A stretch of 33,075 nucleotides of DNA, taken from Syntrophaceae bacterium (GTDB lineage Bacteria; Desulfobacterota; SM23-61). Shown in pieces: positions 8,482 through 24,331 of the stretch. Location: NCBI GenBank assembly GCA_013388675.1, contig JACAEW010000117.1:1-33075 (forward strand). The letters are read 5' to 3'. The stretch's first letter is position 1; every line of letters begins with the position of its first letter. The notes beneath the pieces were generated by a model. It was not told where the DNA came from. It did not search any database and saw only the letters and a program-made list of their open reading frames with translations. The position numbers and the translations under genes were made by a program.

Positions 8482-11175
8482 TCATGTGGTCAGTTTCCGG
8501 TAAATCTTGGGCAACTCCCTCGGCAGGGCCGCGGTCTCTTCGATGACCAGGTACCGGGAGGGGGGCATCATTTTGCGCAGGTAATCGTGCCCCGCCCGAT
8601 CCACGGTGATACAAAAGGTATGGATCTGCTTGCGGCCCGCCTCCTCTAGGGCAATCAGGGTGTCCTGGAGAGCATATTCCTTGTCGGAACGGTCTTCCCC
8701 GTAATCATAATCCTGCGGGTATCCGTCGCTGATCAGGATCAAGTTTTTGATTTTGGACTCCCGGCCGGCCATTTTTTCCGCCGCGTGGCGGATGGCGGTT
8801 CCCATGCGGGTCGAGCGCTGGGGTTTAATCTTTTCGATCCGCCCCTTCACCCGGTCCCCGTACTCCTCCTGAAAATCTTTGATGGCGTAAAACTCCACCT
8901 CTTTGCGCCCGTACCCGGAAAACCCGTAAATGGCGTATTCATCCCCGATCTCTTCCAGGGCCTCAGCCATCACCACCAGGGCTTCCTTTTCGATGTCGAT
9001 AATCTTCTTCTCTTTTTCCTGGGCCAGGATTTCGGGTTTCCGGTTTTTTCCCTCCACCCACTCATCCGTGGAGGCGCTCATATCCAGGAGAAACAGGGTG
9101 GAAAAATCCCGGTCCTTGCGGTTCTTTTCGATGTAAATCTTTTCCGAGGGGGACTGGCCGGCTTTGCGGTCCACGGAGGCTTCGACGGCCGCGTTGAGGT
9201 CGATCTCTTCTCCCCGCTCCAGGTTGGGAATCTTTTTAAACCGCTCCGGCTTGAGCATCTGGAACTGCCGGCGAACCTCGGCTACGAGATCGGAATAGGA
9301 TTCCAGGGTCCGATCGACAAATTCCGTGGAGCCGGTTTCCGCATCCTTTTCCTTGAGACGGCACCACCTCACCCGGTAGTCTGCGATCTGGCAATCCCAT
9401 TCGTCGTAATAATGATGATCCTCCCCCGTTTCCTCGGCCACCTCACCCAGGATTGAACCTATCTCTTTCTTAAGCTTTTCCTTTGCCCGATGGTTGGCCT
9501 CCCGCATGCCGATCGGCTTTTTCAGTCCCTTCAAATCGGTGATAAAAAGCCCCTGAAATTCATCCCCTTCCCCTCCCGGGGATACCTCCAGTTCCATTCC
9601 GCTTTCCAGCAGGGCTTTCAGGATTTCAGGCGATAGGGGAATTCCCATTTCCATCTGGTTGAGCAGGTTTTGCACTGCCCGCAGGCGAAGCTTTTTCTGC
9701 ACCAGTTCAGGCCGCAGCTCTCCCCAATGGGGAAGCGGCGCGAGATTCTGGTAGGGCTCCTCCCCCGGGACGAGGCGGGAAGCCGGGTCTATTCCTCCCA
9801 TGGGAGAAAGCGGCAGGGTTAACGGGGGAAGTGTGTATGCCTCCCATGTGAATGCCGGCTTCAAATTGGGAATACGGCTCAACTTCCGGTACAGAAGGAC
9901 CGCGGCCCGCGCTGATTCCTTGACTCCTGCGCCCGGCCGGGGAAGAGCCATAAGGTGCGGGGTCAAATCAGCCCCCTGGGAAAGAAAAGCCAAGAATGCG
10001 GGGCTCAAGGGCTCGCCGAGAAGCTCCCAGCGGAGAAGGGATTCCAGAAAAGCCTGCTGCAGGGGAAGAGAGGAGACGGGGGGTCGGGCTCCCATGGCCA
10101 TGGGGAGGAAAAAATCCATCTCCTTCTTCAATCCCCGGTACTCCCGCTGAAGGCAGTGATCCACCCTCGCTCCTTCGAGCACATGAAAAAGGTCCCGGGC
10201 CAGTTCCTTCCGCGGGAAGAGATGAAAAAACGCCTCCAGGGAAGAAATTTCTTTTCCCTTATCCGAAATCCCCCGGAGGCAGGCTTCCATGAACTCCGGA
10301 GGGAAAAGGTCCTGGACCGCGGAGAGGCGGAAATTGAACGTCCCGAATTCCACGTAACCGGCCTGATGGACCGTCGCCAGCTTGAAGGCCAGGAAGTTCA
10401 TTTCCCGAGTAGAAAATTGCTTCGCCACGGCGGGCAAAAAAATGGTTTCCCCATCGGTACAGGGAAAGGGCCCGGCCGAATTTTGAATTCCGTTCTTGGT
10501 TTCCTGAAGGGGACGCAGGCCCAGGCTCCGGCCGGTGAGAGCTTGGGCGAAGAGCTTCATGAAGCGGGAGACTTCTTCCAGGGATACGGAAGACGGTTCC
10601 TCTGCTGCCCGGCTCTGGGATCGCCTGGATTCCAGGCTGAAATAAGCCAGGGCCGCGGGAATGCTTTGGGGGATGAGGGACCGTCCTTCTTCGAACCAGG
10701 GGGAGAAGCGGTCCCTTGAAACTTCCTTACTGATCTTGGAAAGGTTCAGAAAGAATTTGTAGGAAATCGAAGGAGCCAGGCGGGCCAGGTCCAACCCTCG
10801 AGAAAGAAGATAGGGGGTTTCTTCCTCGGGGAGGAAAGCCAGGGTCTCTTGGCTCCTTTCCAGGAAATCGATGAGTGTTTCGCGGGAATGGTCAGCGAAG
10901 ATTATGGCCCACTGGATCAGGAATGGCCGAATGGCCGGGGAATGAGACCCGATTTTCTTGGGCCCGAGGCGGAGGAAGGCCACCGCCAGCTTGCTGGACC
11001 TTTCGGCCACCCGCCATCCGATCCTTAAGAGTTCTTCCCTCTCCTTTTTGTCCAGGACAGGAAGAGCCTCCATGGCGTCCGCCAGGGCATCCTCGATCCG
11101 ATCCAGGTCCCAGCGGCTCCGCCGCCTCAGCTCCCGGGCAAATTCATTCCAAAGCTTTATTTCTTTATCTTCCAT
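8482..11175 (-). CDS. VWA-domain protein of the NorD/CbbO type
   Basis: This 897-residue protein ends in a von Willebrand factor A domain (about residues 690-890). Its metal-ion-dependent adhesion site is intact: DMSAS at about 697, a threonine in RSTRMGTAI, and the aspartate of ISDGYPQ near 812. The long N-terminal part is helical, with acidic and KEKK-rich linkers. NorD and CbbO proteins act with a MoxR-family AAA+ ATPase as metal-cofactor insertion or activation chaperones, for example for NO reductase or Rubisco. The MoxR partner is encoded immediately upstream on the same strand. No Rubisco or nor genes are nearby, so the client is unknown. The ATG at 11175 was preferred over a TTG eight codons earlier; neither has a good ribosome site. 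Confidence 0.8.
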   Translation of the reverse strand: MEDKEIKLWNEFARELRRRSRWDLDRIEDALADAMEALPVLDKKEREELLRIGWRVAERSSKLAVAFLRLGPKKIGSHSPAIRPFLIQWAIIFADHSRETLIDFLERSQETLAFLPEEETPYLLSRGLDLARLAPSISYKFFLNLSKISKEVSRDRFSPWFEEGRSLIPQSIPAALAYFSLESRRSQSRAAEEPSSVSLEEVSRFMKLFAQALTGRSLGLRPLQETKNGIQNSAGPFPCTDGETIFLPAVAKQFSTREMNFLAFKLATVHQAGYVEFGTFNFRLSAVQDLFPPEFMEACLRGISDKGKEISSLEAFFHLFPRKELARDLFHVLEGARVDHCLQREYRGLKKEMDFFLPMAMGARPPVSSLPLQQAFLESLLRWELLGEPLSPAFLAFLSQGADLTPHLMALPRPGAGVKESARAAVLLYRKLSRIPNLKPAFTWEAYTLPPLTLPLSPMGGIDPASRLVPGEEPYQNLAPLPHWGELRPELVQKKLRLRAVQNLLNQMEMGIPLSPEILKALLESGMELEVSPGGEGDEFQGLFITDLKGLKKPIGMREANHRAKEKLKKEIGSILGEVAEETGEDHHYYDEWDCQIADYRVRWCRLKEKDAETGSTEFVDRTLESYSDLVAEVRRQFQMLKPERFKKIPNLERGEEIDLNAAVEASVDRKAGQSPSEKIYIEKNRKDRDFSTLFLLDMSASTDEWVEGKNRKPEILAQEKEKKIIDIEKEALVVMAEALEEIGDEYAIYGFSGYGRKEVEFYAIKDFQEEYGDRVKGRIEKIKPQRSTRMGTAIRHAAEKMAGRESKIKNLILISDGYPQDYDYGEDRSDKEYALQDTLIALEEAGRKQIHTFCITVDRAGHDYLRKMMPPSRYLVIEETAALPRELPKIYRKLTT

Positions 11176-11188
11176 ATAGGTAGGACGT

Positions 11189-11243
11189 TTTTGCCACAAA
11201 GGACGACGCAGCGTGGCTTTGCCGCGCTGTGATCTCTGTGGCT
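11189..11243. repeat. Dispersed CACAAAGGACGACGCAG / TGATCTCTGTGGC repeat
   Basis: This lies between the MoxR and VWA genes. It reads as a degenerate version of the CTCTGCG family, with short complementary pieces (GCAGCGTGGC, GCCGCGCTGTG). It appears to have been inserted between two functionally paired genes. Confidence 0.4.
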
Positions 11244-11253
11244 AATGGGTCTT

Positions 11254-12090
11254 TTACGGGAATATGGCGCGGATGACTTCCACGATCCCTTTTTCCACAT
11301 CCAAGTCATCGGTTACCGCCTGGGCCACGGCCACTTCGCAGGCTCTCCGCGGGGCCACTCCCTGGACCATGAGCTGTCCGGCGTAGATCAGGAGGCGGGT
11401 GGAAACTCCTTCCTCCAGCCCATGTTCTTTGAGGTTCCGGACTTTCTCCGCCAATTTGGCCAGGGAAGCGGCGGATTCGAAGTTCACCCCGCTTTCATGG
11501 GCGATGATCTTCGCCTCCACGTCAGCGGGCGGATAATCGAAATCGATGGCTACGAAACGCTGGCGGGTGCTGTGTTTCAGGTTCTTCAGGACGCTCTGGT
11601 AGCCGGGATTGTAAGAAATCACGAGGAGAAAATTCTCATGGGCTTCCAGAATCTGCCCTCGCTTTTCCACCGGAAGGATTCGCCGGTGATCGGCCAGGGG
11701 ATGGATGAGCACCGTGGTATCTTTGCGGGCTTCCACGATTTCATCCAGATAACAGATGGCCCCGTTCTTTACCGCCCGGGCCAGCGGCCCGTCGACCCAG
11801 ATAGTTTCTTCCCCCTTTAAGAGGTATCTTCCCACCAGGTCGGACCCGGTCAGGTCCTCGTGGCAGGCCACGGTAATTAAAGGAAGTTCGGTCCCCATTT
11901 CCTTGCCCAGCCGGTAGGTCATGTACTCCACAAACCGCGTCTTCCCGCATCCCGTCGGCCCCTTGAGCAATACCGGAAGGCGGGCCTTGTAGGCCGAAGT
12001 GAAGATATTCTCTTCATCGCGGATGGGGAGGTAATAAGGCTCCTCCTGCATGAAATATTCTTCAAAAGGCTTTTCCAATTTTTTCTGCAT
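11254..12090 (-). CDS. MoxR-family AAA+ ATPase (CbbQ/NirQ/NorQ type)
   Basis: The 278-residue AAA+ protein has Walker A GPTGCGKT (44-51), Walker B AICYLDE (111-117) and a sensor-1 asparagine in [10 protein letters not shown] (N161). Arginines at STRQRFV (176-178) could serve as fingers. The C-terminal region fits the CbbQ C-terminal helical domain. These ATPases form hexamers that remodel or activate metalloenzymes together with a VWA partner such as CbbO or NorD, which is encoded directly downstream. The start ATG lacks a clear Shine-Dalgarno sequence, but the N-terminus [15 protein letters not shown] is typical of the family. Confidence 0.88.
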
Positions 12091-12789: not shown

Positions 12790-15700
12790 TCACCCGAAAA
12801 CCGCCAGCTCTTGGCTGGCCTTCTTAAAATATCCGTCGGCTGCGCAGCGCCGGAATAACTCCGCGGCCAGAAGCAGGTCGTCCTTGGCTCTGACCGGGTC
12901 TCCCATCCGTTTCCAGATGCGGGCGGAAAGAAGATAATCCTTCCCCAGGAGAAGCTGCATCCCGTGCATCCGGTCCAGTTCGATAGCCCTGTCCGCCCAC
13001 TGCCGGGCCTGCGGAAGCAGCTGTTCGCTCAGATGGAACAAAATCTCAGCCGTATATTGGGCGATCCACCCGCTAAAACCCTTATTCTTATTCTGACTGA
13101 AAGATTTCAGGACATCCTTCAAGCTGATTCCCGAATCTCCCTGCAGGACTTTCGCGCGGGCCACGGCCACCCGGATCAGGTTCAACCAGGAAGGCCCGAA
13201 CCTTTTCTTTTCCAGGAAGGAAGAAGCCCTCTGGTACGATTCAATGGACTTTTCGAACCTTCCCAGGTCGAAATACATGTCCCCCAAAAAGGCCGAGGCC
13301 CAGGAGCCCCAGGTGAAATGGGAGGTATTCTCGCAAAGACCGACCCCTCGGAGGAGATGATCCTCCGCTTCTTCCCAAAAACCCCGGTAGTAGCATGCCG
13401 TCCCATAGCAGGAATGGGCCATCCCTTTGATGTAAATATCCCCGCTCGCCTCGGCGATGTCCAGGGCCTCACGGCTGATCTGATGGGCCTCTTCCATTTT
13501 TCCCTGGAAGAGAAAATTCACGCCCGTATTGATTTTGGCGGAGGAGATCCCCATGGCGCTCTTCGCCGCCAGGCTTAGGTCCAGGGATTTCTGGAAGTAG
13601 TCCAGGCTCTTCTGAAAATCGCAGTTCCAGGACAAGGCGGTTCCCAGGATATAGCAGACGTTCCAAAGGGAAAAATAATCCTTGGCCTCCTCGGAGAACT
13701 CCAAAGCCTGAATCATATATTCCATTCCTTGCACGTGGTCTTCCTCGACAAAGAGCAAGTAGGAGCCGATGGCGGTATAGATGGATGGAAGCCCCCGCCG
13801 GTAGTTGATCCGCAGGGCCAGGTCGGCGATGGGAGATACGACTTCATAGGCTTCCACGTGATCGTTCAGGTTCATGCAATAGTTCGCCAGGGCCACTCGG
13901 GCGTCTATAATTCTCTTCTGCACAGCCGGGCTGTCGGGCATCTTTTCCAGGCAGAACAGCTCCTTGTAGGTGTAGGAGATGGCATCCCCGTAAGCCGACC
14001 TCTTTCTCGCCTTTTTTCCGGCCAGCCGGGAGAATTCCGCCCCTTTCTCGAAATTTTCACTCTTGATGAAATGCTCCGCCAGAACATCGGTGTGCTCGCC
14101 AAGGTTGTTCCGATACAGACGCTCCATCACTTCCCCGATCTTTTCATGGAGCTGCTTTTTCCTCCGGGTCAGGAGGGAATCGTACACCACCTCCCGGGTC
14201 AGGGCGTGCTTAAAAATATAGGTGGACCGGGGATAGATATCCCTCTCATAGAGAAGCTCCGCATTTTTCAGGATGGATAGCCTGGAGAGGAGCTCCGGCT
14301 CGGGTAGGCCGGAAGCCTGTTTGATCAACTCATGGCTGAAGGCGCGATCGATGACCGATGCGGTCTGGAGAAGTTCCCGGGCCCCTTCGGGAAGCGAATC
14401 CACCCGGGCCATGATGACCTCCTGGATCGTCGAGGGAATGTCCAGGGCCTCGACGTTGCGGGCCAGTTGATAGTGGTGGTTTTGTTTCACCATAATCTTC
14501 AAGTCCCGGAGGGATCGCAGGAACTCTTCGATGAACAAAGGGACTCCTTCGGTTTTCTCCAGGATCAGCTCCTCCAGATCGGGACTCAGAACCCGCGTTT
14601 CCAGCAGGTGGGTTACCATGGTCAGGGTCTCCCGGTTGGAGAGACGGTTCAGGGTGATCTGGCTGTGGTAGGATTTGGAGTTCCAACTGGGAATAAATTC
14701 CGGACGGTAGGTAAATAAGGCCAGGATTCTCCCCCCGGGGATCATCTCCAGGAAGGAAAGGAGGGTCTCCTCCGAGCTTTTGTCCATCCAGTGAAGGTCT
14801 TCAAAGATCAGGATCAGGGGCCGCGTGGCCGCTATCTTGAGGAGGATCCGCTTGAACGCCTCCATGATCCGGTCTTTCCTGGCATCCGGGCTGATTAGGA
14901 GCTTTTCGATTCCGCTCTCCTTCACGGAAAGGAGTTCCAGGAGAAAAGGCAAGTAGAGGCCTTCTTCGATCTCCAGTCTTTTCTGGCCGGCGATGACCTT
15001 TCTCTTGATCTCCGGCTCTTCCTCCCCCTCCTGGATATCGAAAGCCCTTTTGAGGATCTCAATGAAAGGATGGTAAGCCATGCCCCGCCCGTAAGAGAGA
15101 CATCTTCCTTCCAAGATCCATCCCTCTTCTTCGGCCACCGACTTCCGAAATTCATACAGCAGGCGGGACTTTCCCATCCCGGCCTCCGCCACAATGGAAA
15201 AAACCTGTCCTCGCCCTTCTTTGGCCCTCCAAAAGCCATCCTTGAGAAGTTCGAGCTCCCGCTCCCGACCCACGAAGGAGGTCAACCCTTTCCCGGCACT
15301 CACCTCGAACCGCGTTTTGCTGGAGCTGGGGGCGATGACTCGGTAGGTCTTGACCGGTTTTTCCTTTCCTTTCACCCTTCTTTCACCGGCAAACTCGAAC
15401 CAGAAGAGACCTTCGGTGAGACGGTAGGTCTCTTCGCTTACCAGGATGGTTCCCGGTTCGGCCATCCCCTCCATGCGCGAGGCCAGATTCACCGTATCCC
15501 CCACCGCGCTGAATTCGACCCGGAGGTCACTTCCCAGACTCCCTACCACCACCAGGCCCGTATGAATTCCGATGCGCATCTGGACCGGCGGAATTCCCCT
15601 TTCCTGCTTTTGGCGCTCGCTGAATCGGTTCAGTTCTCGCGAGATGGCCAGGGCCGAGCGTAGGGCCCTTTGGGGCGCATCCTCCAGGGCGATGGGAGCC

Positions 15701-16185
15701 CCAAACAAAGCCATGATCCCATCCCCGGTCATTTTGTTCACGGTCCCTCCATAGGCATGAACCTGGTGGATGAGGACCCCAAAAACCTGATCCATGAGGG
15801 AATATACTTCCTCATGGCCAATCCTTTCCGAGAGGGAGGTGAAACCCACGATGTCGCAGAAGAGGACGGTGACTTGCTTCCTTTCTCCTTCGATTCGATT
15901 TTTCTGCGCCAGGATTTTTTCTGTTAATCCTTGAGGAAGATATTTCTGAATCTTGGCCAATTTTTCATCCCAGGTGAGATTTGAATGGCGGAAATCCTCC
16001 GAGGGCTGGGCGGGCGGGGGAAAAAGGATTTGACCGCATTCCCCGCAAAATTTATCGCCCGGCTGGTTTTCAGACCCGCATTGGGGGCATCGGGGGTGGA
16101 GTTTTCCCCCGCATTCCCGGCAGAACCGGCGATTTTTTTGATTCTCGGCCCGACATCGGGGACATACAACATGATGGGTTTTCAT
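12790..16185 (-). CDS. Zinc-ribbon / class III cyclase / AAA ATPase / TPR signalling protein
   Basis: This is a multidomain protein of about 1131 residues. Two zinc ribbons come first (C8, C11, C22, C25; C33, C36, C47, C50). A class III adenylate/guanylate cyclase domain follows, with both metal aspartates (D111 in FCDIVGFT, D155 in MTGDG) and the transition-state Asn/Arg pair (NLASR, about 233-237), so it looks catalytically competent. Next is a STAND-type ATPase with Walker A AEAGMGKS (333-340) and Walker B LILIFEDLHW. The last 450 residues are TPR-like helical repeats. Such proteins are thought to couple ligand or partner sensing through the TPRs to cyclic-nucleotide output. No membrane segment is seen, so it is cytosolic. 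The ATG at 16185 was preferred because the zinc ribbon begins there; upstream ATG 16209 and TTG 16290 are also in frame. Confidence 0.88.
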   Translation of the reverse strand: MKTHHVVCPRCRAENQKNRRFCRECGGKLHPRCPQCGSENQPGDKFCGECGQILFPPPAQPSEDFRHSNLTWDEKLAKIQKYLPQGLTEKILAQKNRIEGERKQVTVLFCDIVGFTSLSERIGHEEVYSLMDQVFGVLIHQVHAYGGTVNKMTGDGIMALFGAPIALEDAPQRALRSALAISRELNRFSERQKQERGIPPVQMRIGIHTGLVVVGSLGSDLRVEFSAVGDTVNLASRMEGMAEPGTILVSEETYRLTEGLFWFEFAGERRVKGKEKPVKTYRVIAPSSSKTRFEVSAGKGLTSFVGRERELELLKDGFWRAKEGRGQVFSIVAEAGMGKSRLLYEFRKSVAEEEGWILEGRCLSYGRGMAYHPFIEILKRAFDIQEGEEEPEIKRKVIAGQKRLEIEEGLYLPFLLELLSVKESGIEKLLISPDARKDRIMEAFKRILLKIAATRPLILIFEDLHWMDKSSEETLLSFLEMIPGGRILALFTYRPEFIPSWNSKSYHSQITLNRLSNRETLTMVTHLLETRVLSPDLEELILEKTEGVPLFIEEFLRSLRDLKIMVKQNHHYQLARNVEALDIPSTIQEVIMARVDSLPEGARELLQTASVIDRAFSHELIKQASGLPEPELLSRLSILKNAELLYERDIYPRSTYIFKHALTREVVYDSLLTRRKKQLHEKIGEVMERLYRNNLGEHTDVLAEHFIKSENFEKGAEFSRLAGKKARKRSAYGDAISYTYKELFCLEKMPDSPAVQKRIIDARVALANYCMNLNDHVEAYEVVSPIADLALRINYRRGLPSIYTAIGSYLLFVEEDHVQGMEYMIQALEFSEEAKDYFSLWNVCYILGTALSWNCDFQKSLDYFQKSLDLSLAAKSAMGISSAKINTGVNFLFQGKMEEAHQISREALDIAEASGDIYIKGMAHSCYGTACYYRGFWEEAEDHLLRGVGLCENTSHFTWGSWASAFLGDMYFDLGRFEKSIESYQRASSFLEKKRFGPSWLNLIRVAVARAKVLQGDSGISLKDVLKSFSQNKNKGFSGWIAQYTAEILFHLSEQLLPQARQWADRAIELDRMHGMQLLLGKDYLLSARIWKRMGDPVRAKDDLLLAAELFRRCAADGYFKKASQELAVFG

Positions 16186-16593
16186 AAACGAGTCAATCCC
16201 TTTTTCCATAAAGCCGAAAGAATCCTTCGGCCCCAGAAGCCTTTTTAGCAAATCCAGTGCCAAAGGGAATAGGCTCTTTAACTCCTTCAAACGGTTAGAA
16301 ATTTTCCCACTCGGGGAGGAAGCTTTTCATCCCGCGGGAAAGGATTTTTCCCTTATATCCCCATATTTTTCATGGCTAAACTTCCGGATATTGCCCCTGG
16401 GACAGAAGCCAACGCAGATGGGGACGGGCCCCCAGGGAGTTTTGATAAACCCTAAAAAGAATGAACAAATTGACAGGCGGATGGGTTGCGATTAACATTG
16501 AATATAATTCCCTTTTCTTCGCCCTCCTTCCGGCATCCTCCTGATTCGGGCCAAGGCGGGTAAAGCAGATTCCAGGGGGGGAACTCTACGAAC
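16186..16593. other. Intergenic region between divergent genes
   Basis: This region holds the possible alternative starts of the cyclase gene near 16209 and 16290 and the predicted plus-strand promoter below. No gene or repeat family is otherwise evident. Confidence 0.5.
16470..16498 (+). promoter_or_regulatory. Predicted sigma70 promoter upstream of the Lin0512-family gene
   Basis: A consensus TTGACA (16470-16475) and TAACAT (16493-16498) are separated by 17 bases. A perfect TATAAT also occurs at 16503-16508 but lies too far from TTGACA to pair with it. Transcription could run on into the redox cluster. Confidence 0.45.
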
Positions 16594-16947
16594 ATGAAAA
16601 GGTTTGTGATTGAAGTGGGAATGGGTGTGGACCAGCACGGCCAAGACAATACCCGGGCCGCGGAAAAGGCCGTTCAAGACGCCATACACCGGAGCTGCCT
16701 GTGCGGGCTGCGGGAGGTGGCAGGGATCAAAAGCCCGAATGAAATGCTAGTCGAAGTTTTGATCGGCTGCCCGTCCCCGGAAACGGTGGATCCAGAGCGA
16801 GTCTTAAAGGTCCTGCCCCTCGGCCAGAAGAAGATTGAAGTCCGCAAGGGTGGGCTTTCCGGCAAGACTTTGTTCCAACCCGAGCTGGGGGACAAGACCG
16901 ACGAGATGGTCGTGGCGAATGCGATCCTTACGGTGTATGTACCGTAA
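16594..16947 (+). CDS. Lin0512-family conserved protein
   Basis: The 117-residue protein matches my recollection of the Lin0512 family. It starts with KRFVIEVGMGVDQHGQDNT, has AAEKAVQDAIHRS, and an acidic DEMLVEV-like core (NEMLVEVLIGCP). The function of that family is not established, though small size and the GMG-x-D-x-HGQD motif suggest a ligand-binding role. It lies about 225 bp upstream of the CooF-like gene on the same strand, so it may belong to that transcription unit. The intervening repeats and the absence of a good ribosome site leave this open. Confidence 0.75.
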   Translation: MKRFVIEVGMGVDQHGQDNTRAAEKAVQDAIHRSCLCGLREVAGIKSPNEMLVEVLIGCPSPETVDPERVLKVLPLGQKKIEVRKGGLSGKTLFQPELGDKTDEMVVANAILTVYVP

Positions 16948-17171: not shown

Positions 17172-17705
17172 ATGAAATCCATCTTCGTCAACCCCGAACG
17201 CTGCACTGCCTGCCGCACTTGCGAGATCGCCTGCGCCGTGAACCGATCTTCCATTTCCCGAAAAATGCCCGAGGCGATCTATGAAGCGTTGCCCCCTTTG
17301 CCCCGGGTCCGGGTGGACCGGTGGGAAATGGAGAAGGGATTCCCCATTCAATGCCGGCACTGCGAAGACGCCCCCTGTCTGGATGCCTGTCCTGCCGCCG
17401 CAATCTACCGGGATGAAGAAGGCCTGGTCCTTACCCACGATGAAAGGTGCATCGGCTGCTGGATGTGTATCATGGTTTGTCCTTTCGGCGCCCCCCAGCC
17501 TTTCCGGAATTTTCGGAAGGTCCTCAAATGCGACCAATGTAAAGGAATGGATATGGTCTTTTGCGTGGAAAGCTGCCCCACCCATGCCCTGATGCTGATC
17601 GACCCGGAAGATATTGCCAGGGGGAGATTCAAGCCGCCGAAAAAGGGAAGTCTCGTGGCCTTGAATTATGCTTCCAAGACGGGTCTTTTCGGGCCGGATC
17701 AATAG
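17172..17705 (+). CDS. CooF/HycB-like polyferredoxin, four [4Fe-4S] clusters
   Basis: The 177-residue cytosolic electron carrier has sixteen cysteines in four groups: C11/C14/C17/C21, C61/C64/C69/C73, C93/C96/C99/C103 and C120/C123/C131/C135. This is the four-cluster layout of CooF, HycB and related ferredoxin subunits. CooF passes electrons from the B/D clusters of CO dehydrogenase to a hydrogenase or flavoprotein. A CooS homologue follows after 93 bp and a NAD/FAD oxidoreductase after that, which is the CODH-CooF-FNOR gene order. There is no transmembrane segment or Tat signal. The ribosome site is weak (TTGAGG about 12 bases upstream). Because the CooS partner here lacks its catalytic cluster, the electron donor is uncertain, and cooF is not used as a symbol. 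Confidence 0.85.
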   Translation: MKSIFVNPERCTACRTCEIACAVNRSSISRKMPEAIYEALPPLPRVRVDRWEMEKGFPIQCRHCEDAPCLDACPAAAIYRDEEGLVLTHDERCIGCWMCIMVCPFGAPQPFRNFRKVLKCDQCKGMDMVFCVESCPTHALMLIDPEDIARGRFKPPKKGSLVALNYASKTGLFGPDQ

Positions 17706-17798: not shown

Positions 17799-19355
17799 AT
17801 GAACCGGGTCCATAAAAAAACCGCCCTTTCCCAGACAGCCCAATCCATCCTGGCCGCAAACGAGGAAGGAGAGAGTTTCCTTTGGGGCCGGTACGAAGAA
17901 CAGCTTCCCCTGTGCGCTTTTACGGCCAACGGATTAAACTGCCGGAAATGCTTTCAAGGTCCTTGCCGGATTAACCCCTTCGGCGACCCCCCTACCCGCG
18001 GGGTTTGCGGGGCGGATCGGGAACAAATCGTCATGGAGAATCTTTTCCAGATGACCCTGAATGGGGTCCTGGAAACCGCCCGGTCTATCTCCTGCATCCA
18101 AGAATCTTTCGAGGCCCGGGAGCTCCCCGAATTGGATTCAGACCTGCCGCAGAAAACCGGAGAAAGGCTACGGAAACAAGGGATCCTTCCCGTCCGAAAA
18201 AAGCAGCTTTTTGAAGTTCAGAACGGCTTTTTTTCCCACAAGGGGTACCTCTCCCAAACCCTCAAGGACTTGACCCGTCTGGGATTGATTCACTACGGAC
18301 TTCTGAAAGGGCTGGCTGCATCTCCATCTCCTGCGAAGAATGAATTCACTCAAGACCCTGAGGGGGCCAATCTTTTCCTCGTGGGACAACCCCCTTGGAA
18401 TCATCTTTTGACCCTGGGCCAAAAGGCCCGGGAACAGGCCGGCGGGAAAAAGGTCAATCTCTGGCTGCAGGGAACCCGCGGCCTACCGTTTTTTCCCCCC
18501 TTCCCCGATCACGGCTCGCCCGAGATTGGCTTGGCCAGGGGCGTTGATGCTCTGATCCTCTACCCCAACTCCGATTTTCCCGCGTTGGAAGATTTAGCCC
18601 GGAAATGGAAAATTCCCATTCTACTCGTGGGGGAAGGAAAAAGCTTCGACCGGATTGCCGCGGAGGCCTTCGCCCTTGCCCTGGATCATCAAAAAAATAA
18701 AGGGCACGTTACACCCTTGCCTCTTTCTCAGAGCCAGGCGCCAGAAGGGGTGGTTTTCGATCGGATGGAAGGGATTTCGCGACTGCTGAAGGCCGGGCAA
18801 GTCAAGGGAATCTTGGTCATCTGGGCAGAGCCGAATGTGAAACAGTCCTTCTTCGAAAAAACCCTCTGCCTAATGGAAAGTGCTTCGGATCAAAAAATAC
18901 TCATCTGGGTTGGCGGGGAGGCGGCTGCCCAAGCGGCCCTCTTGAATGAAGAATTGGCCCGAAGAATGGGCAAGAAAGGGGCGAAGACCCCTGAAGGTAA
19001 CCTAGGCAATCCGGGTTATCTATTTTCCTGGGGGGAAATTCCCAGTCTCGTCTCTTTCCTGAGAGGCCTCAGTCCGGGCCTGGAATTTCACCAAATGCCG
19101 CTGGGAGTTGCCTTTCCCGAACTTTCCAGGGCTTCCACCTGGGCTACCGCCGTGGGCTTTTTGGCCCTGGGCTTTGCCGTACAGGTGGGGACTCAACTCC
19201 CCTTTTGGGGAAGTCCATCGCTTTCCGAGGTCCTGCAAAGAGATTGGCCCAACATTTCCGGGGGGGCTTTTATGGCTTCCCCCAGCCTGCCGGATGGGCA
19301 AAGACAGGCCCGGGAGATGATTTCCTACATTCAATCCCGAAGCTTTGAAAAATGA
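17799..19355 (+). CDS. Carbon monoxide dehydrogenase (CooS) homologue lacking the C-cluster
   Basis: The 518-residue protein aligns by eye with CooS over its whole length. The N-terminus has CooS-like helices and the cluster loop: C39, then GLNCRKCFQGPCRINPFGD with C48, C51 and C56, and GVCGAD with C70. These equal the B-cluster cysteines of Carboxydothermus CODH-II. The D-cluster partner C47 is Asn here. The C-terminus (STWATAVGFLALGF, NISGGAFMA) matches the CooS end. In between, all C-cluster ligands are replaced: GHNP is GQPP (196-199), CCTGNE is LQGTRG (223-228), YQC is PNS (256-258), AGCNN is WAEPN (342-346) and TGCGAG is WVGGEAA (370-376). The GSC motif is lost near 411-413. Besides C99 and C357 no other cysteine exists. 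It is shorter than CooS (about 640). It should not oxidise CO; an electron-transfer or structural role is inferred. Confidence 0.85.
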   Translation: MNRVHKKTALSQTAQSILAANEEGESFLWGRYEEQLPLCAFTANGLNCRKCFQGPCRINPFGDPPTRGVCGADREQIVMENLFQMTLNGVLETARSISCIQESFEARELPELDSDLPQKTGERLRKQGILPVRKKQLFEVQNGFFSHKGYLSQTLKDLTRLGLIHYGLLKGLAASPSPAKNEFTQDPEGANLFLVGQPPWNHLLTLGQKAREQAGGKKVNLWLQGTRGLPFFPPFPDHGSPEIGLARGVDALILYPNSDFPALEDLARKWKIPILLVGEGKSFDRIAAEAFALALDHQKNKGHVTPLPLSQSQAPEGVVFDRMEGISRLLKAGQVKGILVIWAEPNVKQSFFEKTLCLMESASDQKILIWVGGEAAAQAALLNEELARRMGKKGAKTPEGNLGNPGYLFSWGEIPSLVSFLRGLSPGLEFHQMPLGVAFPELSRASTWATAVGFLALGFAVQVGTQLPFWGSPSLSEVLQRDWPNISGGAFMASPSLPDGQRQAREMISYIQSRSFEK

Positions 19356-20638
19356 TGGTTAAAAAAAATACAACCCTCCCGAAGCAGCGAAAACAATACC
19401 TGATCATCGGAAACAGCGCGGCCGGCATCTCCGCGGCCAGAGAAATCAGACGGCAGGACGCGCGCGGCCGGATCACGATGTTCTCCGATGAGCCGACTTT
19501 CGGCTATTCCCGGGTAATGCTCCCCCTGTATCTTGCCGGTAAAATTCGGAAGAGCGGGCTGATGATCGCCCCGAGGGAATCCTACGCTCGGCTCGGGATC
19601 CAACTTCTGCGCGGGGACCCGGTTGAATCCATTAACCCCAAAGGACAAAGGGCCCTTACCCGAAAGGGGACTCACCTCCCCTACGACCAACTGCTTGTGG
19701 CCACCGGATCATCGCCCCGCACCCTGAGCGTTCCGGGGAATACCCTCGCCGGGATTCATTACCTCCGGAAAATTAACGATGCCGAAGACATCCGGAACGA
19801 CCTTTCAAATTTCTCCGGCCCGGTGCTCATAATCGGGGGGGGATTGGTCAGCGTTAAAAGCTTGGAGGCTTTGGTACATAAAGGGAGAAAGGTCCACATG
19901 GTAATATCTTCAGATCGGATTTTATCCCAGATGCTGGATCAAAGGGCCTCCAACCTTTATCGAAACCTTTTGCAAAAAAAAGGAGTCATCCTTCGGTTTC
20001 ATACCGATGTTCTTTCCTTCGAGGGAAAAGAAAGGATGGAGGGCGCCTGTCTCTCCGACGGAACTTTTCTCGCTTGTTCGTTGGCGATTATTGGCAAAGG
20101 AGTGAAACCCAATGTGGCTTTCCTGGATGGGACCGGGATCGGGTTGAACGAAGGGGTGGTCGTGGACTCCCGCCTGGCCACCAACCTCCCCTCCATCTAT
20201 GCGGCCGGGGATGTGGCCGAGACCCTTGACCCCCTGAAGAAAAAGCACCAGGCTCAGGCCATCTGGCCCCTGGCCGTTGAGGGCGGGCGGGTTGCCGGCT
20301 CCAACATGGCATCTTCAGTGTCCACCCTAAGAGGGGCACTGAGAATGAACGTCGTGGATCTCCTGGGGTTGAAGGCCGTTTCGGTAGGGGCCGAAGAGGG
20401 GCAGGAAGTCCTCTCCTATTTTCCCCCGGGAAAGTCGGTTTACCGGAAGCTGGTTTTTTCCGGGGGCCGGCTCACGGGATATCTTTTGGTCGGAGATATC
20501 CGCTGCGCCGGGGTTTTGACTTTCCTGGTGAAAAACGGGACTCCGGTTTCTCCCGCGGACCTGGAAGAAGGATTGGAAAGGTGGTTTTCTTTCTCCCCGA
20601 AGCTCCGGAGTCTTGCGGGACAAGTGAAGCTTTCCTAA
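19352..20638 (+). CDS. NAD(P)/FAD-dependent oxidoreductase (FNOR-like)
   Basis: The 428-residue pyridine-nucleotide-disulphide-type flavoprotein has an N-terminal FAD fold (LIIGNSAAGISAAREI), the ATGSSPRT motif, and an NAD-binding motif LIIGGGLVSVKSLEAL. The FAD aspartate motif is IYAAGDVAE. No redox-active CxxC is present, so it resembles NADH oxidases, rubredoxin reductases and the FNOR partners of CODH. Its start overlaps the stop of the CooS-like gene by four bases (ATGA), which indicates translational coupling and a common complex. It would move electrons between the CooF-like protein and NAD(P). The direction cannot be read from sequence. A second ATG, in frame three bases on, is equally possible. 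Confidence 0.88.
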   Translation: MMVKKNTTLPKQRKQYLIIGNSAAGISAAREIRRQDARGRITMFSDEPTFGYSRVMLPLYLAGKIRKSGLMIAPRESYARLGIQLLRGDPVESINPKGQRALTRKGTHLPYDQLLVATGSSPRTLSVPGNTLAGIHYLRKINDAEDIRNDLSNFSGPVLIIGGGLVSVKSLEALVHKGRKVHMVISSDRILSQMLDQRASNLYRNLLQKKGVILRFHTDVLSFEGKERMEGACLSDGTFLACSLAIIGKGVKPNVAFLDGTGIGLNEGVVVDSRLATNLPSIYAAGDVAETLDPLKKKHQAQAIWPLAVEGGRVAGSNMASSVSTLRGALRMNVVDLLGLKAVSVGAEEGQEVLSYFPPGKSVYRKLVFSGGRLTGYLLVGDIRCAGVLTFLVKNGTPVSPADLEEGLERWFSFSPKLRSLAGQVKLS

Positions 20639-20738: not shown

Positions 20739-21518
20739 TTGCGGATCGACCCCGATAAATGCATCGGCTGCGGAAAATGCCAATCCTACTGCACCATGTG
20801 GGGCGGGGTGATGCATTTGGAAAGACACCCGAACCTACCCTCCCGGGTCATCACGGTGATCGACGAGGATGAGTGCGTGGAATGCAGCGTTTGCCTCCGC
20901 AGCGGCTGCTGCCCCACGGAGGCCTTATTCCAGCCGATCCTGGAGTGGCCGAGGATCGTTAGAAAAAACTTTAGCGATCCCCTGAAAATCCACCCGGAAA
21001 CCCGCATTCCCGGACGGGGGACCGAGGAGATGAAGACCAACGATATAACCGGCCGCTACCCCCGGGGAATGTATGGAATGGCTTTGGAGCTGGGACGACC
21101 CGGTGTGGGCGCACGCTTTTCCGACGTGGAAAAGGTGGCCAGAGCGCTCGCGACTCGGGGGGTGGAATTCGAGGAAAACAATCCGGTGACCAAGCTGATG
21201 GCGGACCGGAAAAAGGGATTGATCCATCCAGCGGTGCTGGGGGAAAAGGTTCTCTCGGCCATCGTGGAGTTCATGATCCCGGCGGAGAATCTTCCTCAAA
21301 TCCTGGGAACCCTGGACCGGGTTTCAAGGGAAATCAACACCGTTTTCTCCGGGGACATCATTTCCCGGGTTGCCCCGGACGGGTCCGTTCTTTCGGTCAA
21401 GAATTTAGAGGAAATGAAGCGGTTCATTTCCATCAACGGCAAGAGCAATGTCGGCTTGGGGAGGCCCAGAGCCATGGACGAAAGGAATGTGGAATTCCGA
21501 ATGCGGATTGCGGAATAA
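20739..21518 (+). CDS. Unrecognised Fe-S protein with N-terminal ferredoxin clusters
   Basis: I do not recognise this 259-residue protein as a named family. Its first 60 residues bind probably two [4Fe-4S] clusters: C8/C11/C14/C18 (CIGCGKCQSYC), then C46/C49/C52 with C57 and C58 (CVECSVCLRSGCCP). The second group departs from the ordinary CxxCxxCxxxCP spacing. The remaining 200 residues are soluble, alpha/beta-looking and cysteine-free (for example ARALATRGVEFEENNP, AIVEFMIPAENLPQ, DIISRVAPDGS). The frame opens only after a TGA at 20712, so the start is TTG at 20739 with AGGAGG close upstream. The last ten codons coincide with a dispersed repeat. Its position between the FNOR-like gene and the RACo-like gene suggests an electron-carrier or adaptor role in that cluster. 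Confidence 0.78.
   Translation: MRIDPDKCIGCGKCQSYCTMWGGVMHLERHPNLPSRVITVIDEDECVECSVCLRSGCCPTEALFQPILEWPRIVRKNFSDPLKIHPETRIPGRGTEEMKTNDITGRYPRGMYGMALELGRPGVGARFSDVEKVARALATRGVEFEENNPVTKLMADRKKGLIHPAVLGEKVLSAIVEFMIPAENLPQILGTLDRVSREINTVFSGDIISRVAPDGSVLSVKNLEEMKRFISINGKSNVGLGRPRAMDERNVEFRMRIAE
21485..21516. repeat. Dispersed repeat forming the 3' end of a coding region, copy 6
   Basis: GGAATGTGGAATTCCGAATG and GCGGATTGCGGAAT are intergenic-type words here read as codons (NVEFRMRIAE, then stop). The natural C-terminus may have been replaced when the repeat arrived. Confidence 0.55.
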
Positions 21519-21642: not shown

Positions 21643-22287
21643 ATGACTCACACCCTCCATCGCCGGGGCAGCCGCGAGAGCTTGTCCTGTGACTACATCG
21701 TCTTCACCATGTCGGCCAAGGGCTTTAACGAGGCGGGCTCGGGGAAAAAGATGAAGGAGTTTCTCGACATCCTCTTGAAATACCGGCCTGTCAACTATGG
21801 GGACATGGTAACCGGAAACGGTTACGTGAAACCCCGGGAAGAAATATACAACCAAATCGGGGATACCAGCATTGTCCATGGAGTGTTTACGGACCCGAAG
21901 ATCGTTTCGGATGTCCTGAAGGAACTCAAAGCGGCGGACCTGGGCACTTCGGTCGTGGTCACCGGAATTCACGAAGACACGGAAAAATGCTGCCGCGAGA
22001 GCTCCCTCGAGAAACATACCGTTGAGCATTCCCTGGGAATCTTTGGTCGGCTAAAAAGGCTGCCCGCGGAAGAAATCCTTCAGTTGACCACTATGTGCGG
22101 CCACGGTATGGTCCCGGTCAACCTGGTGGAAAAGGTTGTGGCCGACATCAAACGGAAGAAAAAGACCTACCGGGAAGCGGCGTTGGACCTCACCCGTCCC
22201 TGTCACTGCGGGGTTTACAACCCGGTCCGGGCGGAAAGGCTGCTGCGGCGGTTGGTTCCCCTGATGGTATTGGATGGATGCGGTTGA
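21643..22287 (+). CDS. Unrecognised cysteine/histidine-rich protein of the redox cluster
   Basis: This 214-residue soluble protein is unknown to me. It has clustered potential metal ligands: C16; C116 and C117 (TEKCCRESS) followed by H125 and H129; C152 and H154 (TMCGHGMV); C187 and C189 (TRPCHCGVYNP); and C213 at the end (DGCG). CC, CGHG and CHCG are not ferredoxin spacings, so a non-standard cluster, a metal site or redox thiols are all possible. The C-terminal part has a regular helical stretch (VEKVVADIKRKKKTYREAAL). The start follows AAGGAT. It lies 124 bp after the Fe-S protein gene and about 100 bp before the RACo-like gene on the same strand. Confidence 0.75.
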   Translation: MTHTLHRRGSRESLSCDYIVFTMSAKGFNEAGSGKKMKEFLDILLKYRPVNYGDMVTGNGYVKPREEIYNQIGDTSIVHGVFTDPKIVSDVLKELKAADLGTSVVVTGIHEDTEKCCRESSLEKHTVEHSLGIFGRLKRLPAEEILQLTTMCGHGMVPVNLVEKVVADIKRKKKTYREAALDLTRPCHCGVYNPVRAERLLRRLVPLMVLDGCG

Positions 22288-22325
22288 ATGAAAAATGGAG
22301 GCCGGTGATGATACACCCGGCACGC

Positions 22326-22362
22326 AGGGGCGACCCGCTGGGGGATATGCCCGATCGCCCCT
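22326..22362. repeat. REP-like inverted repeat AGGGGCGA ... TCGCCCCT
   Basis: Perfect eight-base arms (22326-22333 and 22355-22362) enclose a GC-rich 21-base spacer. The element lies inside what would be the first codons of the next gene if the ATG at 22295 were used. It therefore favours the later TTG start at 22391. Confidence 0.55.
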
Positions 22363-22390
22363 ACCCCGAGATAAGGGAGCCATTTCCAAA

Positions 22391-24331
22391 TTGATCAAGG
22401 AAAAAATATCTGTTCTTTTTCAACCCTCCGGACGGAGGGGGGAAATCAAAGCGGGAAAGACCGTCCTGCAGGCGGCGCAGGAGCTGGGCGTTCCTTTGGA
22501 ATCGATTTGCGGGGGAAAATCCACCTGCGGCAAGTGCAAAGTACGGATTCAGGAAAGGGGCCTCGAAAAAAGCGATTTTTCCGGAACCCGTCTTTCTCCC
22601 CTTACTCCCGAAGAAAAAAAATTCATTTCTCCGGATGAACGAAAGTTAGGATACAGGCTGGGGTGCATGGTCCAGCTGTACGAAGACACCCTGATTTTCA
22701 TCCCCGAAGAGAGCCGCGGGACCCAGCAGGTTATCCGCAAGGAGGCAAGGGAAATACCCGTGGACCTGAACCCCGCAATAAAGGCCCATTATGTAGAACT
22801 CTCTCCCCCCTCTTTAAAGGAGCCCCTGGCCGATTTCGAGCGCCTGCAATCGGCCCTGCACCGTTCTTACGGCTTGGCGGATTTGAGCATTGATTGGCCT
22901 GCCCTTCTGGTTCTTCCCCAGAGACTCCGGTCGGAGGAATGGAAGGTCACGGCGATGGTCTGGATGGACCGGGAGATCCTGGACGTTCTCCCGGGAAAGG
23001 TAGAGGATTATTATGGAATAGCTGTGGACATCGGGACGACCACCGTGGCGGTCTATCTCTGCAGTCTGCGGAGCGGGCAAATCCTTTCTTCGGGATCCCT
23101 GATGAATCCCCAGGTAGCCTATGGGGAAGACGTAATGGCCCGGATCACTTACGCCATGGTGAACCCGCAGGAAGGCTTGACGCGGTTGCGCGAGGCCATC
23201 ATTGATGGATTGAACACCCTGATCCGAAACACCTCCGAGGCTGCCCGGGTCTCCCCGCAATCGATCCTGGAAATGACCGTCGTGGGCAATACGGCCATGC
23301 ATCATATTTTTTTGGGGATCGACCCTCAGTCCTTGGGAATTTCTCCTTTTGCCCCGGCCCTCCATCGTTCCCAGAATTTGAAGGCCCGGGACCTGGGGCT
23401 GAAAGTCCATCCCTCCGCCAATGTCCACATCCTGCCCATTGAAGCGGGTTTTGTGGGGGCCGATAATGTTGGGGTTTTGATCTCCGAGACCCCATACCAA
23501 AAAGGAGAGATGTCCCTGATCATCGACATCGGAACCAACGGAGAACTGGTCCTGGGAAACAACCGCAGGCTTTTGTCTTCCTCCTGCGCCACCGGGCCGG
23601 CCCTGGAAGGGGCCCATCTGCGCTTCGGAATGCGGGCCGCTCCCGGAGCCATCGAAAGGGTTCGTATTCATCCGGAAACCCTGGAGGCCAGATATAAAGT
23701 CATCGGGCAGGAAAAATGGAGCGATGAATGCCTCCCGGAGGAGCTCCAGTCGCGGGGGATCTGCGGCTCGGGCATCATTGAAGTCGTGGCCGAGATGTTC
23801 CGGGCCGGAATTCTGGAGAAGAGCGGGCGGTTCGATGGAAAACGATCCTCCCCTCGACTGCGCAGGAATGAAAAGGGTCAGGAATTCGTCATCGCCTGGG
23901 CCGGGGAAACGGCCATAGGACAGGACATCACCATTTCCCTTTCCGATGTGCGGGCCGTTCAGCTGGCCAAAGGCGCCCTTTATTCCGGGGCCAGGATCAT
24001 GATGAAGAAGCTGGGAGTGAATCGGCTGGACCGGGTCGTCCTGGCCGGGGGATTCGGCAGTTATGTGGACCCGGAGCGGGCCATGATCCTGGGCATGTTT
24101 CCCGATTGCGACTTAGAAGAAGTCGTTTCGGTCGGGAATGCGGCGGGGGACGGGGCTCGAATAGCCCTGTTGAACCGGGGAAAGCGGGAGGAGGCCGACC
24201 GGGTGGCCAGGGAAGTGGAGTACATCGAGCTCACGGCCTATCCCGAATTCGCCATGGAATTCGCCGAGGCCATGCTCTTCCCGCATATGAAAGACCCTTT
24301 CCCCCATTTGGAAGGGATTTTAAAAAAGTGA
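22391..24331 (+). CDS. RACo-type corrinoid activator: [2Fe-2S] plus ASKHA domain protein
   Basis: This protein of about 646 residues resembles reductive activators of corrinoid proteins (RACo/RamA-like, DUF4445). An N-terminal adrenodoxin-type [2Fe-2S] domain has C40, C46 and C49 (ICGGKSTCGKC) and C92 (YRLGCMV). A linker leads to an ASKHA ATPase domain with GIAVDIGTTTVAVYL, MTVVGNTAMHH, IIDIGTNGELVLG, SCATGPALEG and LAGGFGSYVDPERA. RACo proteins use ATP and low-potential electrons to re-reduce inactive Co(II) corrinoid to Co(I), for instance in the Wood-Ljungdahl pathway or methyltransferase systems. No corrinoid protein or methyltransferase is in the window. The TTG at 22391 is preceded by AAGGGAG. 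The earlier ATG at 22295 would translate an inverted repeat. Confidence 0.86.
   Translation: MIKEKISVLFQPSGRRGEIKAGKTVLQAAQELGVPLESICGGKSTCGKCKVRIQERGLEKSDFSGTRLSPLTPEEKKFISPDERKLGYRLGCMVQLYEDTLIFIPEESRGTQQVIRKEAREIPVDLNPAIKAHYVELSPPSLKEPLADFERLQSALHRSYGLADLSIDWPALLVLPQRLRSEEWKVTAMVWMDREILDVLPGKVEDYYGIAVDIGTTTVAVYLCSLRSGQILSSGSLMNPQVAYGEDVMARITYAMVNPQEGLTRLREAIIDGLNTLIRNTSEAARVSPQSILEMTVVGNTAMHHIFLGIDPQSLGISPFAPALHRSQNLKARDLGLKVHPSANVHILPIEAGFVGADNVGVLISETPYQKGEMSLIIDIGTNGELVLGNNRRLLSSSCATGPALEGAHLRFGMRAAPGAIERVRIHPETLEARYKVIGQEKWSDECLPEELQSRGICGSGIIEVVAEMFRAGILEKSGRFDGKRSSPRLRRNEKGQEFVIAWAGETAIGQDITISLSDVRAVQLAKGALYSGARIMMKKLGVNRLDRVVLAGGFGSYVDPERAMILGMFPDCDLEEVVSVGNAAGDGARIALLNRGKREEADRVAREVEYIELTAYPEFAMEFAEAMLFPHMKDPFPHLEGILKK

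Follow-up and report, generated by a model that had tools for sequence, protein, structure and literature searches.

Closest described systems

Ni-CODHs are among the oldest and best-studied metalloenzymes. Where CooS, CooF and FNOR are encoded in one operon, electrons from CO are believed to end up on NAD(P)H (PMC8776680, PMC6344411). The nearest described variants are mini-CooS, clade G and CODH-V, and each of them still has either a metal cluster in its active site or the majority of the cluster's ligands. Clade G Ni-CODHs and mini-CooS resemble the system described here in that a CooS-type protein is linked to CooF and FNOR (PMC6344411; PMC8776680), and CooS-V (CODH-V) in having a CODH fold without CO activity, an absence which is predicted in the present case. 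Class III hybrid cluster protein has a related dimeric fold (PMC10502027). AorABC connects a tungsten enzyme to NAD through a four-cluster ferredoxin and an FAD/NAD subunit (PMC10413684).

No description of C-cluster-free CooS proteins of the present kind was found in the open-access literature, and one may exist elsewhere. One CODH survey discards sequences with deletions at cluster positions, those shorter than 550 aa and those scoring below 200 bits (PMC6344411), and similar filters were applied in two others (PMC8776680, PMC13056359). Such pipelines remove C-cluster-free CooS by design, and the family has been overlooked.

The locus studied here lies in a Syntrophaceae stretch of 33,075 nucleotides (hereafter the window), which is contig 237 of a 353-contig, 5.0 Mb assembly. 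The genes concerned are as follows.

16594..16947, forward strand: Lin0512 family protein, upstream; no conserved association with the module across the loci examined
17172..17705, forward strand: CooF/HydN-like ferredoxin, 177 aa, with 16 Cys forming four [4Fe-4S] motifs (family models; conserved neighbour)
17799..19355, forward strand: CooS-like protein without C-cluster, 518 aa (family models, alignment, structure match)
17940..18008, forward strand: codons of the four B-cluster Cys (48, 51, 56, 70) of the CooS-like protein (alignment)
19352..20638, forward strand: FNOR, an FAD/NAD(P) pyridine nucleotide-disulphide oxidoreductase, 428 aa (closest NCBIfam model PadH, E 8e-70)
20739..21518, forward strand: FERX, an N-terminal dicluster ferredoxin followed by a domain of about 190 aa without family (conserved partner)
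21643..22287, forward strand: MTH, 214 aa, no family match; motifs MTH(T/S)LHR, MCGH and CxCGxxNP
22295..24331, forward strand: RACo/AcsV-like corrinoid reductive activator, 8 bp after MTH

The CooS-like protein shares the whole fold and the numbering of the B-cluster cysteines with the Ni-CODHs of clades E/F (CODH-II), and CooF and FNOR neighbours with a subset of CooS operons. It differs from these enzymes in having no C-cluster ligands or acid-base residues, an incomplete D-cluster, a length of 518 aa and FERX-MTH as partners.

The CooS-like gene and its fold

The reading frame runs unbroken from an ATG at 17799 to a stop at 19355. The stop overlaps the start of the next gene (ATGA at 19352-19355) and the gap to the upstream gene is 93 bp, so the intact frame and coupled operon claimed in the original prediction were both borne out. 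Two independent CODH family models matched the N-terminus (TIGR01702, E 3.2e-23; Prismane, residues 48-99, E 1.9e-14), and a sequence search against PDB recovered the CODH 6t7j with a total E of 3.6e-24 over two stretches, 10-91 and 321-496. An AlphaFold2 model built from 20 family members (pLDDT 75.7, pTM 0.84) resembled CODH structures from end to end (Foldseek; 6t7j E 8e-21; TM-score by query about 0.70-0.74). The homology to CODH is thus real, full-length in fold and far beyond chance, and the protein belongs to the CODH/HCP fold superfamily over its whole chain. The description of a full-length CooS homologue accordingly holds for the fold, but relative to CODH-II the chain is shorter by about 120 aa and carries internal deletions. 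The B-cluster loop is the lowest-confidence part of the model (pLDDT 37-51), for which reason distances cannot be judged from it.

Metal ligands

The protein contains cysteines 39, 48, 51, 56, 70, 99 and 357 and no others. It was aligned with 33 CooS sequences of the same phylum, nearly all of which have the complete ligand set. The alignment confirmed C39 and the four B-cluster cysteines (C48, C51, C56 and C70) at their CODH-II numbers, and the B-cluster Cys4 motif of CooS is therefore present. Through groups I to III of the family (defined below), these B-cluster cysteines are the only conserved metal site.

None of the six C-cluster ligands (H261, C295, C333, C446, C476 and C526) was found in the CooS-like protein. 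H261 is replaced by Q, C333 by S, C446 by E, C476 by G or E and C526 by W or G, while at C294/C295 there is a gap or LQ depending on the alignment, and no cysteine. The loss of all six ligands, as first proposed, therefore stands, since no cysteine was placed at any C-cluster position; only the suggested replacement of CCTGNE by LQGTRG is alignment-dependent, that segment being gapped in one alignment. The acid-base residues His93 and Lys563 have been lost as well. From the missing ligands it follows that the protein should have no CO activity. It could be argued that it remains a CODH whose active site has become non-canonical, given that the fold and the partners of a CODH operon have been kept. 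The former catalytic domain, however, has no cysteine except the unconserved C357, and with the acid-base His and Lys also gone this reading is extremely improbable.

The D-cluster cysteine pair is incomplete, with C39 present, Thr at 42 and Asn at 47. The predicted change of D-cluster Cys47 to Asn is correct for that position, but in genuine CooS of this phylum the second cysteine is often at 42 rather than 47; with T42 and N47, neither type of second cysteine is available here. A hybrid cluster is not suggested either. The hybrid-cluster Cys ligands of hybrid cluster proteins are absent, C99 and C357 being the only cysteines outside the N-terminal loop, and whereas the active site of the CooS-V structures is occupied by a hybrid cluster (according to their PDB titles), the CooS-like protein has no cysteines to hold one.

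Relatives and phylogeny

Relatives were searched in depth within one phylum, whose genomes are mostly metagenome assemblies, and homologues at various stages of loss were recovered in four groups. Group I has B-cluster cysteines only and comprises six loci: the window, L005 (JACRCA010000302, a Deltaproteobacteria groundwater MAG), L051 (JAKPQH010000008), L036, L037 and L053. Identity to the window protein is 54% for L005, 48% for L051 and 28-34% for the other three. Profile scores exceed 300 bits within group I and drop to 71 or less outside it. A degenerate-pattern scan of genome contigs yielded only four relatives, and no relatives were found among viral contigs.

Group II consists of seven sequences without C-cluster ligands, one of which (L034) is a second copy in the window's own genome. 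Six of its members (L034, L038, L039, L041, L042 and L148) have conserved cysteines of their own (VCTSGE, ELC) in the former catalytic domain, which may possibly form another metal site. The eight group III sequences (about 570 aa) range from five of six C-cluster ligands to nearly none. L044, L115 and L116 keep H261, C333, C446, C476, C526 and K563 with C295 changed to Thr; in L040, L043, L045, L113 and L114 the four later C-cluster cysteines are gone. Group IV (L047, L048, L185 and L186) contains shorter proteins of about 340-400 aa which keep C39, C47 and the B-cluster cysteines, and no C-cluster motif was found in any of the four.

Maximum-likelihood analysis placed groups I, II and III and the CooS set each to one side of a well-supported branch, although long branches were flagged and the order of the groups is therefore not certain. 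L044, L115 and L116 fit the description of clade G (CxxC-type D-cluster, first C-cluster Cys changed to Thr; PMC6344411). Group I and group III, which includes these clade-G-like members, form separate clades (support 100/97 and 100/99). The window protein falls outside clade G and mini-CooS, as clade G keeps most C-cluster ligands and the window protein none; the tree covered groups I to III and the CooS set, and the comparison with OGP75751 (clade G) and WP_007288589 (mini-CooS) relies on published descriptions. As group III is mixed, C-cluster ligands were lost on at least one occasion within it and on at least one other along the line leading to groups I and II.

Selection on the gene

Ratios of dN/dS were estimated by the simple counting method of Nei-Gojobori. 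The one non-saturated pair in group I gave 0.21 and group II gave 0.19-0.26; there is no value for the window gene itself because dS to its nearest relatives is saturated. Constraint is concentrated in the B-cluster region. Residues 1-90 gave a ratio of 0.04-0.15, residues 91-330 one of 0.13-0.33 and the C-terminus beyond one of 0.12-0.21, and 19 of the 25 columns invariant through groups I to III fall within the first 90 residues (19/90 compared with 6/428 elsewhere).

These values support maintenance of the gene by selection. A decaying CODH relic whose frame is still open by chance is very improbable; group I frames are intact in six loci from at least four genera, the ratio of 0.21 (from a single pair) indicates constraint, the operon is conserved and the stop codon overlaps the next start. 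On the side of decay is one group II copy in a relative, L046 (8194-9728), in which a truncated CooS-like protein is fused to a truncated FNOR by internal deletion or misassembly. The deletion reaches into FNOR, and single copies can apparently decay. The original prediction of a maintained pseudoenzyme rather than a decaying gene is thus upheld as to maintenance by the intact frames, the ratios near 0.2 and the conserved five-gene operon, and "pseudoenzyme" is an incomplete label.

The emptied C-cluster cavity might instead hold another ligand or metal, in which case the protein would act as a sensor or as an enzyme with another specificity. Group I-specific residues conserved in the former active domain (P241, E242, N346, Q349, E353, E441 and W470) and the group II cysteines noted above are in keeping with such a function, but conservation is lowest and evolution fastest over residues 91-330, and the residues replacing the ligands vary among members, so that we regard it as unlikely.

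Gene neighbourhood

CooF, the CooS-like protein, FNOR, FERX and MTH were all present in 15 of the 15 loci of groups I to III with both flanks available (group I: window, L051, L053, L036 and L037; group II: L034, L038, L039, L041 and L148; group III: L043, L044, L045, L113 and L114). In group III the order is FERX-MTH-FNOR-CooF-CooS-like, and as the five genes are kept in two different orders it is the gene set that is conserved and not its order. Twenty genuine CooS loci of the same phylum served as the control; CooF occurred together with FNOR in 6 of them, and FERX or MTH in none. The trio of CooF, CooS and FNOR thus appears to be the CO-oxidation operon set, with FERX-MTH as the new partner. 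In group IV the order in four genomes is CooF-AOR-CooF-CooS-like-FNOR, where AOR is a tungsten-type aldehyde oxidoreductase; an OYE/Pyr_redox fusion gene usually follows.

Two other neighbours were considered and rejected as explanations of the module. RACo adjoins it only in the window and hence is not its purpose, and uptake through TctABC is a context of groups II and III and not of group I.

The FERX and MTH genes are paired, and the pair is multi-copy in some deltaproteobacterial genomes; of 396 genomes in the phylum, 28 encode MTH, with as many as seven copies. Within group I they are 59-78% identical to the window proteins, compared with 28-54% for the CooS-like protein, and in many loci they are found without it; both are as expected of an enzyme and its helper. 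The pairs lacking a CooS-like gene are often beside TctABC, GntR regulators, TPP enzymes, CoA-transferases and tartronate-semialdehyde-reductase-like genes, from which two-carbon or three-carbon hydroxy acids can only be guessed as the substrate. On contig 328 of the window's own genome (L034:2577-7049), three tandem FERX-MTH pairs are located downstream of the group II CooS-like gene and FNOR, followed by TctCBA.

The predicted structure of MTH, which is confident (pLDDT 92), has a ferredoxin-like domain and a helical, Cys-containing tail. No relatives of MTH were found in Pfam, in NCBIfam or by PDB profile search, nor any PDB structure match below E 1e-3; FERX matched PDB entries by its ferredoxin part only. 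A profile comparison between the two revealed no convincing relation (probability 2.7%), and plasmid records held no relatives of either. The C-cluster-free family also points to FERX-MTH as a redox system not yet described; the pair is frequently adjacent to tripartite tricarboxylate transporters.

Proposed role

With its CODH fold and B-cluster site kept, its C-cluster ligands gone, its gene selectively maintained and CooF and FNOR as constant partners, the CooS-like protein most likely serves to move electrons from one protein to another and not to oxidise CO. A positive function beyond that of a pseudoenzyme is suggested by the operon, by conservation of the B-cluster site and by the parallel in group IV, and on balance we consider it probable that a former Ni-CODH subunit has become an electron-relay and docking subunit. 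Each monomer would bind one [4Fe-4S] B-cluster, the surfaces by which a CODH contacts CooF and FNOR would be retained, and electrons would be carried between NAD(P)H/FNOR plus CooF and an exchangeable catalytic partner, namely FERX-MTH in the window and groups I to III, or in group IV the tungsten aldehyde oxidoreductase. Once electrons were supplied or consumed by another protein, the centre for CO oxidation may no longer have been needed. Cluster content, complex formation and the direction of electron flow are all inferred here from conservation and the operon. A comparable link from a catalytic subunit to NAD is made by AorABC, which has no CODH-like subunit.

The concentration of constraint on the B-cluster region favours such a relay, as does group IV, which keeps the cysteines of both conducting clusters (D: C39 and C47; B) but no C-cluster motif, in an operon with CooF, FNOR and AOR. 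Counting against it, the exit route from the B-cluster is not obvious in group I because the D-cluster is incomplete, and on contig L121 a CooS-like fragment is followed directly by FERX with no FNOR between.

A purely structural role, with the dimer holding a FERX-MTH/CooF/FNOR complex and the B-cluster carrying no electrons in turnover, would agree with a whole fold kept around one cluster site, the lack of a D-cluster in group I and the selection on a C-terminal region without cluster ligands (0.12-0.21). This is rather unlikely, though it deserves some weight, as the cluster region is the most strongly constrained and in group IV, where most of the rest has gone, the cysteines of both conducting clusters persist.

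A broader form of the relay proposal, to which we would give slightly less than an even chance, is that this C-cluster-free family, arising by more than one loss, acts as an interchangeable electron adaptor, its cassette with CooF and FNOR plugging different oxidoreductases, FERX-MTH among them, into the NAD(P)H pool. If the relay is real, a CODH dimer would be useful as a wire alone, its active site removed and its wiring kept. It would also help in reading apparently inactive CODH clades and correct automatic calls of CO oxidation.

Other features of the window

Two further regions on the reverse strand were noted. At 8482-12090, a VWA/CoxE-like protein (905 aa) adjoins a CbbQ/NorQ-type AAA ATPase, and at 12790-16290 a protein of 1166 aa appears by eye to contain zinc ribbons, an adenylate cyclase, an ATPase and TPR-like repeats.
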